Part shown: positions 24,948 through 49,502 of the stretch, in pieces
Layout of the letters: each line of letters starts with the position of its first letter
Numbering within the stretch: the first letter of the stretch is position 1
Virus record (IMG/VR): IMGVR_UViG_3300025889_000169
Coordinates: 1 to 51,173 of that record
Source: a virus
Reading direction: 5' to 3' (one strand)
DNA length: 51,173 nt
Notes under the pieces: model-generated
Seen by the model: the letters and a program-made list of their open reading frames with translations, nothing else
Databases searched by the model: none
Told to the model about the DNA's origin: nothing
Program-made: the position numbers and the translations under genes

Positions 24948-25014
24948 TACCTGCTCCAAGGTAGATGCTAGCTGATTCTGTTGCCAGGTTCAGCTAGCCA
25001 AACCCCGTCTAGCC

Positions 25015-25068
25015 TCAAGCGGCTAGAGCAAATGCAACGTTATTATCGTTTGCGTTTATAAAGTTTGC
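25015..25068 (-). CDS. tmRNA proteolysis-tag reading frame
   Basis: The resume codon is GCA at 25068. The tag is ANFINANDNNVAFALAA, then TGA. The end ALAA is the canonical ClpXP/ClpAP recognition end. Confidence 0.88.
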   Translation of the reverse strand, partial: ANFINANDNNVAFALAA

Positions 25069-25138
25069 TTGATTTACGGTCATCGCCTACCGGTAACTCC
25101 ACTGCGCCTATTACGTGTATCGATCCTAGTTCGCCCCC

Positions 25139-25215
25139 ATCAAAAGCACACCGAGGACTTGAACCTCATTTCTAGAATAGTACCATACTACAGGAGCTAC
25201 CTGCTGGTGTGCTTA
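25139..25215 (-). other. Intervening segment of the permuted tmRNA with tRNA-like fold
   Basis: The segment between the CCA end and GGGGGCG is closed by a 9-bp stem, AAGCACACC/GGTGTGCTT. It contains three hairpins, CAGG-TAGCT-CCTG, TAGTA-TGG-TACTA and GAGG-TTCAAGT-CCTC. The last is a canonical T arm. There is no usable anticodon loop. Confidence 0.75.
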
Positions 25216-25282
25216 TGGTGGAGGCGAGCGGTACTGCCCCGCTGTCTACTCCGTCGTTAACGTGCTTCAACGTTACAATACT

Positions 25283-25311
25283 ATTTAACTATATTTTTGG
25301 ATTTTTGTCAA
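25283..25311 (-). promoter_or_regulatory. Sigma70-like promoter of ssrA
   Basis: TTGACA, 17 bp, TTAAAT on the minus strand, with an expected start at about 25276. It lies in the gap after the stop of the 25317-27251 gene. Confidence 0.75.
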
Positions 25312-45777: not shown

Positions 45778-47475
45778 ATGAAATTACCAAAAGATGCGAA
45801 GGCTCAATTAGATAGGCTACTTGGCAGGTTCACAAGGCAAATACCAGAGGCTCCTGAGTACCAAGACAGACTCGTCGAAGAATTTGAGATTATTCTCAAA
45901 CTTCGCTTTACTGATTATTTCCTAACAATTTGCGACGTACTAGCTCTGACCGAGGACATTCCACATATGACTCGGGGTTCAGCAGGGTCTAGTCTTGTCT
46001 GTTATCTACTAGGTATTACAGACGTTGATCCCATAAGGTGGCAGATACCTGTTGCCCGTTTCCTAAATCCTTTGAGGGATGATCTACCAGACGTAGACAT
46101 AGACTTTCCGCATTGGCAACAGGACACTGTGATGCAACGTATCTTTGCAAATTGGCCAGAACGTTCAGCAAGAATCAGTAACTATGTGCTATACAAGGAG
46201 CGCAGTGCTCGCAGAGAAGCGGCGCGCCGTCTAGGTGCGTCTGGTAGACTCCCTCGTAATTTTCGTTATGAAGATTTAGACATTGACAAGGAAGAGGCCA
46301 TGAGAATCGAACACAAATTAATAGGCAAAAAACGAAGCATCAGCAAACACTGTGGTGGTGTGCTGGTATTTGAGAGAAAACTACCCAAGAGTTTATTCAA
46401 CAAAGACAATCAGATATTATTAGACAAACGTGAAGTAGAAGACTTAGAACACCTTAAGATAGACATACTTGCTAACAGAGGTCTAAGCCAACTTATTGAA
46501 ATAGATCCTGACACGCCACTGGAAGCATATCCAGAACAGGACTTTGAAACAAGTCAGTTACTATGTAGGGGTGATGTTATTGGCGTAACACAAGCAGAAT
46601 CTCCTGCAATGAGACGGCTGTTCCGTGCAATACAGCCACAATCAAAAGCAGACTGTGTGTTTGCCACAGCACTCATACGTCCTGTTGCAACTACAGGCAG
46701 ACAGAAAGCAAGTTTCTTTCAGGACTGGACAGAACAAAGACTAGAGGACACTATTGTATATGAGGATGATGCTATACGTAAGATTGCTAAACTCATAGGC
46801 TGCGACTTGTATGAAGCAGACATGTACAGACGTGCGTTTGCTAAGAAGGATGAAGAACGTGTAATAGAATTTATGAGTCGAATGGGCGAACATGCTGACA
46901 AGGAAGCAATCATACAAGAGCTGTATGGACTGGGTAACTTTGGACTGTGCCGCGCTCATGCTGTAAACCTGGGTAGACTTATTTGGGCACTTGCATATCA
47001 AAAGGCACACAACCCACTAAAGTTTTGGCAGGCTGCACTCAAGCACTGTCAGGGATCATACAAGCGTTGGGTACACAAGCAGGAAGCAAAAACAGCAGGT
47101 TGGGATCTACGTGATCTTGGATATGAGAATGGAATATGTGAGTCACCTGTTACACAATACAAACGCAATGGCTATTGGTCACAGCCAGAGTTTATGCCCA
47201 ATATGTTTGTACAGGAAACCTATTTGGACCGTGTAAACTTTGCAGGGCTTGTAGCAAATGGGCGTGTATTCAAGGGTGCAGAGGGCAAGTATGTCACGTT
47301 TGTTACGCTAGGCGTGGGCAATAGTGATTACGTAGACGTAACTATCAAAAAGCCCTTTGGCTTCAGAGACCATGATGTTATTGTGGGTTCGGGTAAGATA
47401 CGCATGACTAACGGCACACGCTATATTGACTGTTGGGAAGCAAAGGGCTATAGACTAGATAGATATTTGTCCTAG
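45778..47475 (+). CDS. Short C-family DNA polymerase (DnaE/PolC palm-fingers type, no PHP domain)
   Basis: Motifs of bacterial Pol III alpha follow in order: RGSAGSSLVCYLLGITDVDP (66-85), RFLNP (94-98), PDVDIDF with D107 and D109 (104-110), SKHCGGVLVF (189-198) and HLKIDIL with D229. Next come a GVTQAESPAMRRL-type finger helix and the GNFGLCRAHAVNLGRL helix. The C-terminal 90 residues look like an OB fold (FAGLVANGRVFKGAEGKYVT). All three catalytic Asp are kept, but at 565 aa the N-terminal PHP domain and tau-binding end are absent. It could replicate or repair phage DNA. Confidence 0.8.
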   Translation: MKLPKDAKAQLDRLLGRFTRQIPEAPEYQDRLVEEFEIILKLRFTDYFLTICDVLALTEDIPHMTRGSAGSSLVCYLLGITDVDPIRWQIPVARFLNPLRDDLPDVDIDFPHWQQDTVMQRIFANWPERSARISNYVLYKERSARREAARRLGASGRLPRNFRYEDLDIDKEEAMRIEHKLIGKKRSISKHCGGVLVFERKLPKSLFNKDNQILLDKREVEDLEHLKIDILANRGLSQLIEIDPDTPLEAYPEQDFETSQLLCRGDVIGVTQAESPAMRRLFRAIQPQSKADCVFATALIRPVATTGRQKASFFQDWTEQRLEDTIVYEDDAIRKIAKLIGCDLYEADMYRRAFAKKDEERVIEFMSRMGEHADKEAIIQELYGLGNFGLCRAHAVNLGRLIWALAYQKAHNPLKFWQAALKHCQGSYKRWVHKQEAKTAGWDLRDLGYENGICESPVTQYKRNGYWSQPEFMPNMFVQETYLDRVNFAGLVANGRVFKGAEGKYVTFVTLGVGNSDYVDVTIKKPFGFRDHDVIVGSGKIRMTNGTRYIDCWEAKGYRLDRYLS

Positions 47476-48389
47476 ATGTTTATACCATAGTCTTGTCTAC
47501 GAATACCTTTGAGCATGTCTTGTCTATCCAATTCCTGTATGGTTTGTTCGTTAATTGGAGTCCTAGGATTAAAACATGCAGGCTGAGTTACTTCACTGAT
47601 AAACCAGTTTAGATTATTTTTTTCAAACCAATCTAAAGTTTCCTGTTTATAAGGTAATAGAACATTAGTAAGTGCAAAGTGTACACTAATGTCACAACCT
47701 ATACTTTTAAATTTCTCAAGGTTAACTAATAATTTATCCCATTTTAACGGCCAACGTTGGTATTCGTAACGACTTTCTATACCGTCAATACTTAAACATA
47801 ATATTAATTTTTTGAACTTTTTAAGTACTGTTAGTAAATCTTCCGTTAATTCTATACTACCATTTGTGATAATGCTAACAGTACAGTCTTTGTTTAGTCT
47901 TTCTAATATTTCTATGTTCTTTGATTCTAAAAGTGTTTCACCGCCTAGCAGTTCCACATATTTTGCTGTATCAAAATCTATTTCATTAAGTAACTCGTCG
48001 CCTATTGTTCTTTTATGTGCTATACCATCCAAACTTTCCCACATGCTGCTATAATTTGGAGAACACATTATACAAGCAGCGTTGCAAACATTACTAGTAG
48101 TAATCTGATAGATTGTTGGCTGATAATGTGTACAAATCTTTTTTAAATTTTCAATATCTAGATCATAAAGTGTATCAGCAAGTATGTTTTGCTGTTGTCT
48201 CCTGCTCGTCTGACCTAGGTCTTCTGAGTTCCAGCATTTCTGACATGCAGAAGTTTTTATTCCATTACTAATCTCTGTTCTTATTAAATCTATGTCATAG
48301 TCCTGAGGTAACCAGCAACAGTGCCCGATACGACCTCTTGGATATATTTCTTTTGCTAACCATGGCATAACACAAAATGTATCTGACAT
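47472..48389 (-). CDS. Radical SAM protein, twitch/SPASM-related (305 aa)
   Basis: The cluster motif is C102-x3-C106-x2-C109 (SNVCNAACIMCS). A Cys-rich N-terminal part (IGHCCWLPQD, SACQKCWNSED) is typical of the twitch/SPASM-type proteins in marine phages. KYVELLGGETLLE supplies the GGE motif for SAM. The enzyme would make a 5'-deoxyadenosyl radical, but the target is unknown. It sits next to a second, similar protein, and its end overlaps the polymerase gene by four bases on the opposite strand. Confidence 0.82.
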   Translation of the reverse strand: MSDTFCVMPWLAKEIYPRGRIGHCCWLPQDYDIDLIRTEISNGIKTSACQKCWNSEDLGQTSRRQQQNILADTLYDLDIENLKKICTHYQPTIYQITTSNVCNAACIMCSPNYSSMWESLDGIAHKRTIGDELLNEIDFDTAKYVELLGGETLLESKNIEILERLNKDCTVSIITNGSIELTEDLLTVLKKFKKLILCLSIDGIESRYEYQRWPLKWDKLLVNLEKFKSIGCDISVHFALTNVLLPYKQETLDWFEKNNLNWFISEVTQPACFNPRTPINEQTIQELDRQDMLKGIRRQDYGINI

Positions 48390-49502
48390 CTATAGGTACC
48401 TGCTGTAAAAACTTGAAACTTCAGGAAATGTTTTAGTCCAATCCTGCTTCCTCCAACCATCAACCTTTTGGATCTCAGATATCATTTTTTTAATCAGTGC
48501 AGAATTTTCAACAAAATTAGTTGGTACAAGACCAAAAATATCGGTTCCGGTAATTCTGTCTATATACTCGTTAGTCATTGACTGTAAACTAAAAATACCA
48601 TATGCATTATGCGTTGTATGATTAGTAATATCCCCCAAGCGATTAGTACTAAAATTAGACCTAGCCCAATTGACTAATTCATTATGATAATACAAGTTAA
48701 AAATGCTCAGGGTTTCTTCTACTAGAAACATCATATTAACTGGTGCAGTGTCAACTATTTCTTGGATATTTTCAGTAACTTGATTCCAGCTAGCTGGCCA
48801 TCTAAGATATTCAAAGCGTTCAGCAACACCATCTAAACTAATATTAAGTTTTACAAGATGTGCTTTTTCTATAATAGAATAATGACGTTCTCCAATTGGC
48901 TGTGTGCCATTTGTTTGAAAACTAATTGTAAGCTGGTTACCAGCATTGGGAACATTGTTAACAAGATAGTCAGCAACTTTCCAATAACTTTCTCCAAGTA
49001 ATGTCTCGCCACCGCCAAATACTACGCTTTTAAGATTAGATAAGTCTAGAGTTTTAAGTATAGCAATCATTTCCTCGACACGATCAGGTTTTGGATCCAT
49101 CTCTGAGATTGCATTATTGTCCTTTAAATGTTTTTGCCAAAATGTGCTGCTATGAGGTCCACAGCTACGACATGATAGGTTGCAACTTGTGCTAAACATC
49201 AAATCTAAACGTAACGGGCCAGATATGTTTCTTTGTACACCAAACTGTTCTAACATTCCTTGTCTGAAGCTAATTAGGCCGGCACGTTCATTTGCTTGAC
49301 AAGACCAACAGCTATCTAACCACTCTCCCTGATCGTTTTTTTGTCTAATTACCTCAAAGTTCTTTTTTTCCCAAACATTATTAGTTTGAATAAAGTCACT
49401 GGTGTCCAAACAACAATATTTAATATTGATTCCAGTCCCTTGTTTTAAGTTAATATTAAGACCTCCGTGAATCATAGGGCAATATGTAGAATTATCAGTC
49501 AT
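48390..49502 (-). CDS. Radical SAM protein, twitch/SPASM-related (370 aa)
   Basis: C107-x3-C111-x2-C114 (STSCNLSCRSCG) binds the [4Fe-4S] cluster, and VVFGGGETLLGE gives the GGE motif. The N-terminal part has further cysteines (TYCPMIHGG, IKYCCLD, WLDSCWSCQANER) that could bind an auxiliary cluster. NISLDGVAERFEYLRWPASW is a shared block with the neighbouring radical SAM protein (SIDGIESRYEYQRWPLKW), so the two are paralogues. Substrate unknown. Confidence 0.82.
   Translation of the reverse strand: MTDNSTYCPMIHGGLNINLKQGTGINIKYCCLDTSDFIQTNNVWEKKNFEVIRQKNDQGEWLDSCWSCQANERAGLISFRQGMLEQFGVQRNISGPLRLDLMFSTSCNLSCRSCGPHSSTFWQKHLKDNNAISEMDPKPDRVEEMIAILKTLDLSNLKSVVFGGGETLLGESYWKVADYLVNNVPNAGNQLTISFQTNGTQPIGERHYSIIEKAHLVKLNISLDGVAERFEYLRWPASWNQVTENIQEIVDTAPVNMMFLVEETLSIFNLYYHNELVNWARSNFSTNRLGDITNHTTHNAYGIFSLQSMTNEYIDRITGTDIFGLVPTNFVENSALIKKMISEIQKVDGWRKQDWTKTFPEVSSFYSRYL

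Follow-up and report, generated by a model that had tools for sequence, protein, structure and literature searches.

A phage two-piece tmRNA gene whose intervening segment probably serves as a slot for a tRNA-like RNA cassette

Transfer-messenger RNA (tmRNA) is the RNA that frees stuck ribosomes. The present analysis concerns a tmRNA gene on a viral DNA of 51,173 bp (IMG/VR record IMGVR_UViG_3300025889_000169, analysed over its whole length and henceforth called the window), and in particular the intervening segment (IVS) between the two pieces of that gene, which holds a tRNA-like element. A two-piece tmRNA has been described for phage Melnitz, with a count of 53 two-piece tmRNAs in phage genomes (PMC9004378), and a database of 2025 holds 79 unique phage tmRNA sequences (PMC11915505). 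Phage-borne permuted tmRNA genes have hence already been published, and the window is another case of this known gene type. Methylophilales phage Melnitz and pelagiphages likewise carry an alpha-type permuted tmRNA with its own tag (PMC9004378), but the IVS of Melnitz, 142 nt in length, has an unannotated frame in place of a tRNA-like element. The permuted tmRNA of Alphaproteobacteria (Rfam families RF01849/RF04321) shares the gene order, the acceptor stem, the resume region, a 12-residue tag of the ANDN.. type, and the two-piece design. It differs by a short IVS (bacterial median 31 nt versus 81 nt in viruses, p 1.6e-16, in a survey with loci chosen solely by tmRNA 5′ sequence) and by the absence of the window element from all 100 alphaproteobacterial loci bearing the tmRNA motif. 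A tRNA-type RNA in the IVS has been described for the permuted tmRNA of GCA-2688965 sp002688965, where it is a tRNA-Ala (PMC11915505), whereas the window element is non-canonical, has no anticodon arm, and is conserved over alpha and beta types. The best Rfam match of the IVS besides tmRNA was mascRNA (RF01684), which shares a cloverleaf resembling that of tRNA, in which the T-arm is strong and the anticodon arm weak, and which likewise adjoins the end of another RNA. However, mascRNA is mammalian, and the IVS element reached 26.7 bits against a cut-off of 42.5, so that membership was rejected and no homology is claimed.

The permuted alpha-type tmRNA proposed in a first-pass annotation of the window was borne out by Rfam searches. 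On the minus strand, positions 25276-25015 matched RF04321 (tmRNA_permuted; 120.8 bits, E 3.8e-23) and positions 25324-24967 matched RF01849 (alpha_tmRNA; 106.3 bits), the latter being the Infernal check suggested in that annotation; both matches lie far above the curated cut-offs of 47 and 50 bits, respectively. The gene order is acceptor piece, IVS, and coding piece, and the gene is permuted because the CCA-bearing piece is encoded before the 5′ piece. The predicted piece ends (25216 and 25138) and the 7-bp acceptor pairing were both correct, with only the strand missing from the earlier description. The stem is formed by CGCCTCC (25226-25220) and GGGGGCG (25138-25132) and includes a G3-U70 wobble, which is a mark of alanine acceptance, and the 3′ end consists of the discriminator A followed by CCA ending at 25216. 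ARAGORN made no tmRNA call at the locus with default settings and called the tmRNA with relaxed settings, but with a wrong tag. Judged by these features, the locus is almost certainly an intact two-piece (permuted) alpha-type phage tmRNA gene.

The IVS of this gene folds cloverleaf-like, with a z score of -2.8 by itself and -5.1 when the acceptor stem is included. The pattern GGTACTATTCTAGAAATNAGG was matched in nine viral contigs, in every case within the IVS of a permuted tmRNA: alpha-type genes in a twin of the window and in L086, beta-type genes (RF01850) in L438, L439, L441, L442, L444, and L445, and L440, which extends past its fetched end and repeats the L442 sequence. Contigs carrying the element are up to 353 kb in length. 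A looser pattern added L462, L468, L497, and L498 (39-53 bits with R1, the covariance model of the element), which have an extra anticodon-arm-like hairpin, giving a total of 13 viral permuted tmRNA records of alpha and beta type; a further match of the looser pattern, L507, was discarded as a chance hit in coding-like sequence without tmRNA. Across eight distinct sequences, 99.3% of the cells in paired columns were paired and 11 of the 22 pairs carried two-sided changes, and the covariation score was reached by none of 500 shuffles. L497 was excluded from the pair count, as MAFFT had placed its first hairpin one column off (the hairpin is present in its own fold). The element matched neither RF00005 nor ARAGORN at default settings and has neither an anticodon arm nor a CCA; a canonical tRNA in the IVS was hence rejected. 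ARAGORN called it tRNA-like only at about 85% of its threshold, and at 80%, one of 2000 dinucleotide shuffles was called. R1 had no match in 299 Pseudomonadota genomes, searched with strict filters and with no positive control among them, and beta-proteobacterial chromosomes were poorly sampled (0/60 genomes over the RF01850 cut-off). The family is absent from Rfam, and no report of this IVS element or of genes nested in tmRNA was found in the literature. Based on its fold, covariation, and distribution, the IVS element very likely represents a conserved structured tRNA-like RNA family.

The IVS evolves as a cassette independent of the enclosing tmRNA, because L086 shares the IVS beyond the tmRNA (88% identity to the window in the IVS, 74-78% in the mature tmRNA parts), and L123 shares the tmRNA but not the interior of the IVS (94-98% in the mature tmRNA, 53% in the inner IVS). 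The IVS of L123 and of its relative L124 is an unrelated 66-nt hairpin. This bears on a competing explanation, according to which the element is a processing module whose resemblance to a tRNA would attract RNase P to its 5′ edge, directly behind the CCA, and RNase Z or E to its 3′ edge, thereby ensuring dependable maturation of both tmRNA ends during infection. Analogues would be a tRNA spacer in a tRNA operon and mascRNA at the MALAT1 3′ end, and the weak mascRNA match (26.7 bits), the T-arm stacked beside the closing stem, the element edges only a few nucleotides from the tmRNA ends, and the published tRNA-Ala in one permuted tmRNA IVS (PMC11915505) are in line with it. Yet the near-identical mature tmRNA of L123/L124 with its unrelated IVS argues that the element is dispensable for maturation, the invariance extends over unpaired sequence and exceeds what a processing signal should need, and the motif recurs outside tmRNA. 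A processing module is hence regarded as rather unlikely, and a role essential for tmRNA maturation in particular is unlikely because L123 does without the element. A function of its own is favoured for the element because its unpaired core is invariant in unrelated tmRNAs and because the module of GTATGGTACTA and T-arm is also present in phage tRNA arrays outside tmRNA.

Our preferred interpretation is therefore an intact phage two-piece tmRNA whose IVS is, on balance, probably a cargo slot holding a tRNA-like RNA cassette; for the reading of the element itself as cargo, the chances are estimated as even at best. This reading is supported by the protein genes under selection that other phages carry in their IVS (see below). 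Several points weigh against this interpretation. The element could act in tmRNA processing and not as cargo; the likeness to the tRNA arrays is limited to the motif, with 17-24 bits for R1 there; just eight to nine distinct element sequences are available, all from patterns requiring the core or part of it; and the consensus scan of the tmRNA region yielded no convincing promoter. The features of the locus are compiled in Table 1.

Table 1. Features of the tmRNA locus and its intervening segment, in window coordinates
Feature	Positions	Strand	Evidence
77-nt IVS, conserved tRNA-like element, excision from precursor expected	25139..25215	-	Covariance model R1, 105.8 bits (training sequence); fold z -2.8; covariation, 8 sequences
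IVS closing stem (9 bp), 5′ strand AAGCACACC, pairs with 25152-25144	25206..25214	-	Fold; two-sided changes in 4/9 pairs
D-arm-like hairpin GCAGG TAGCT CCTGT	25190..25204	-	Two-sided changes in 5/5 pairs
Core GTATGGTACTATTCTAGAAAT, without anticodon arm	25168..25188	-	Identical in 9 strong-match records including beta-type tmRNAs
T-arm GAGG-TTCAAGT-CCTC	25153..25167	-	Outer pair varies GC/AU/GU
IVS closing stem, 3′ strand GGTGTGCTT	25144..25152	-	Fold, covariation
tmRNA acceptor (3′ tRNA-like) piece, T-arm GCGGGGCAGTACCGC and CGCCTCC-A-CCA, 3′ end 25216	25216..25276	-	RF04321/RF01849 alignments; 98% identity in L123 including upstream flank
tmRNA coding piece, 5′ acceptor strand GGGGGCG at 25138-25132	24967..25138	-	RF01849 match reaching 24967; 94% identity in L123
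Tag frame ANDNNVAFALAA and TGA; resume codon GCA 25053-25051; stop 25017-25015	25015..25053	-	RF04321 consensus alignment; L123 homologue; bacterial tags
TTGACA, candidate -35, also in L123/L124; promoter unproven	25306..25311	-	Sequence conservation

Further tRNA-like sequences were observed in viral records. An RNA of about 120 nt without a call in phage tRNA arrays (L465, L467, L469, L470, L479, L486, L504, and others) is tRNA-like, with two T-arms and a AGTATGGTACT hairpin; an 8-bp acceptor-like stem is common to 18 distinct aligned sequences, and one representative reached 26 bits as an Rfam tRNA, under the cut-off. T-arm hairpins (GGGTTTGAGTCCC, GGGTTCGAGTCCC, and GGGTTGAAGTCCC) also occur in other viral tmRNA IVS (L042, L063, L012, and L016), with six T-arms found in 152 distinct viral IVS versus 0.6 expected.

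The full-length gene is retained in relatives. In L122, a tmRNA identical to that of the window lies at the same place, and L123/L124 carry a tmRNA at the same locus, downstream of a protein 52% identical to that of the window. Identity between the window and L123 amounts to 98% over the acceptor side plus flank and to 94% over the coding piece, and the acceptor pair C6-G67 of the window is changed to U6-A67 in L123/L124. Retention of the full-length gene together with this compensatory change identifies the tmRNA, as far as sequence comparison goes, as a gene under selection and no remnant. An alternative had been considered in which the tmRNA is useless to the phage, being a host gene that was captured or is decaying, the remnant of an attachment site, or part of a chimeric contig; tmRNA genes are frequent integration sites of phages and islands, and the record is a metagenomic contig. 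This alternative is highly improbable: the gene is complete (both pieces, the tag, and the 3′ region are present), three other contigs carry it at the same position, and the record has no integrase (PF00589) and has phage genes flanking the tmRNA. Phage genes of the record encode ribonucleotide reductase, helicase, DNA polymerase, endolysin, and lysis and structural proteins. Additionally, two adjacent genes at 47472-49502 (305 and 370 residues) match phage radical SAM families and adjoin a DnaB-like helicase and a DNA polymerase gene. BLASTN of the tmRNA locus against 50,697 phage records gave no match, nor did a host search with an exact tmRNA segment in 84,980 genomes.

Judged by homology, the gene encodes the 12-residue tag ANDNNVAFALAA (codons 25053-25018), as the RF04321 consensus frame resumes at ..AUAAAUGCAAACGAU and the homologous codon in the window is GCA at 25053. 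The homologous tag of L123 is ANDNNVDYALAA, in which ANDNNV..ALAA is retained and the two residues before ALAA differ. Tags of bacterial alpha loci almost always start with ANDN, which is supporting evidence only, the reading having been anchored on A-[NDE]-[DN]. For S. meliloti, a 12-residue tag peptide was identified by mass spectrometry (PMC10117765). The tag given in the first-pass annotation, ANFINANDNNVAFALAA, was replaced by ANDNNVAFALAA, since its start was misplaced according to the RF04321 alignment and L123; its ALAA end stands. An ANFIN extension of the tag lies upstream of the homologous resume codon and was rejected. The sigma70-like promoter of its own that had also been ascribed to the gene is not established: the consensus scan called no sigma70 site on TTGACA (25311-25306), and promoter-like matches around the tmRNA were at chance level (2 found versus 1.4 expected). 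Control of ribosome rescue by the phage, as suggested at the outset, is a plausible hypothesis. The phage tmRNA might instead mainly compete with the host tmRNA by sequestering SmpB or alanine, with the tag being incidental; the window record has no SmpB gene, and the tag-less tmRNA of phage DS6A inhibits host tmRNA according to the passage of PMC11915505 in which it is cited. Such competition is improbable, because the tag frame is intact and its resume codon and ALAA end are preserved while the two residues preceding ALAA have diverged.

Small proteins, several of them membrane-like, are encoded in the IVS slot of marine phages, with ratios of nonsynonymous to synonymous polymorphism (pN/pS) that point to purifying selection. 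An ATG frame of at least 27 residues spanning at least 60% of the IVS was present in 28 of the 113 viral IVS, and three nested families look clearly coding, with pN/pS of 0.34 (WSICAD family, 41 distinct sequences), 0.27 (11 sequences), and 0.22 (three sequences only) and higher values in the other two frames. As the WSICAD family was gathered mostly via a pattern demanding a Shine-Dalgarno-like IVS start, its frequency is not representative. With the same pN/pS of 0.34 over 41 distinct DNA sequences, the permuted tmRNA IVS of 60 viral loci (L289, L246, L068, L286, L336, and others) encodes a small membrane-like protein (e.g., MKNPLVREVSKWMFKAYIVWSICADITLLAGIIYLVFF), and the Shine-Dalgarno stretch AAGGAGAT of this type of gene is part of the IVS closing stem. 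The 62-residue family A (MEIIWHILLTVC..; 80 loci, L358-L436 and MZ577097) is an ordinary gene that also entered the IVS, because it is nested in 20/80 loci, yet precedes the tmRNA directly or at a short distance in 28/80 and has no tmRNA within the fetched locus in 32/80. In Melnitz (MZ577097), gene 85 belongs to family A and lies directly upstream of the tmRNA, and the unannotated frame MFKWLSKTRLVVITRDYFRERNRKADAKIPKYLSG.. in its IVS (L437 1078-1219) is homologous to the nested protein of L088; the Melnitz annotation examined lacks locus tags 87 and 88. Nested proteins had no match in PHROGs and two sub-threshold matches only in Pfam. In L101, L106, L020, L105, L017, L103, L005, and L059, the nested frame continues past the RNase P cleavage site and ends within the 5′ piece of the tmRNA (..MGAK* or similar); where a nested frame does so, maturation would leave a non-stop mRNA.

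In the proposed mechanism, the minus strand would be transcribed into one precursor, in which RNase P would cut at 25138 and tRNA 3′ processing would free the CCA end at 25216. Positions 25139-25215 would thereby be removed, with the two pieces held together by the acceptor stem, and the two-piece tmRNA would receive alanine and associate with SmpB of the host. During infection, it would rescue stalled host ribosomes, adding A-ANDNNVAFALAA, and the excised 77-nt element may be set free as a small RNA of tRNA-like form that performs a function of its own. For phage tmRNAs in general, we tentatively propose, at somewhat less than even chances, that the IVS is a cargo slot whose contents are co-transcribed and freed by tmRNA maturation, and that some nested messages thereby become non-stop and thus a substrate of the enclosing tmRNA. 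Hitherto regarded as a spacer to be discarded, the IVS of phage tmRNA very likely holds a structurally conserved RNA family in the window, and genuine protein genes occupy it in many other phages. The tmRNA gene would thereby be a gene-within-a-gene, providing a testable link between tmRNA maturation and hidden phage gene expression. Neither the IVS element nor the nested genes are found by annotation pipelines in which the tmRNA interval is masked.
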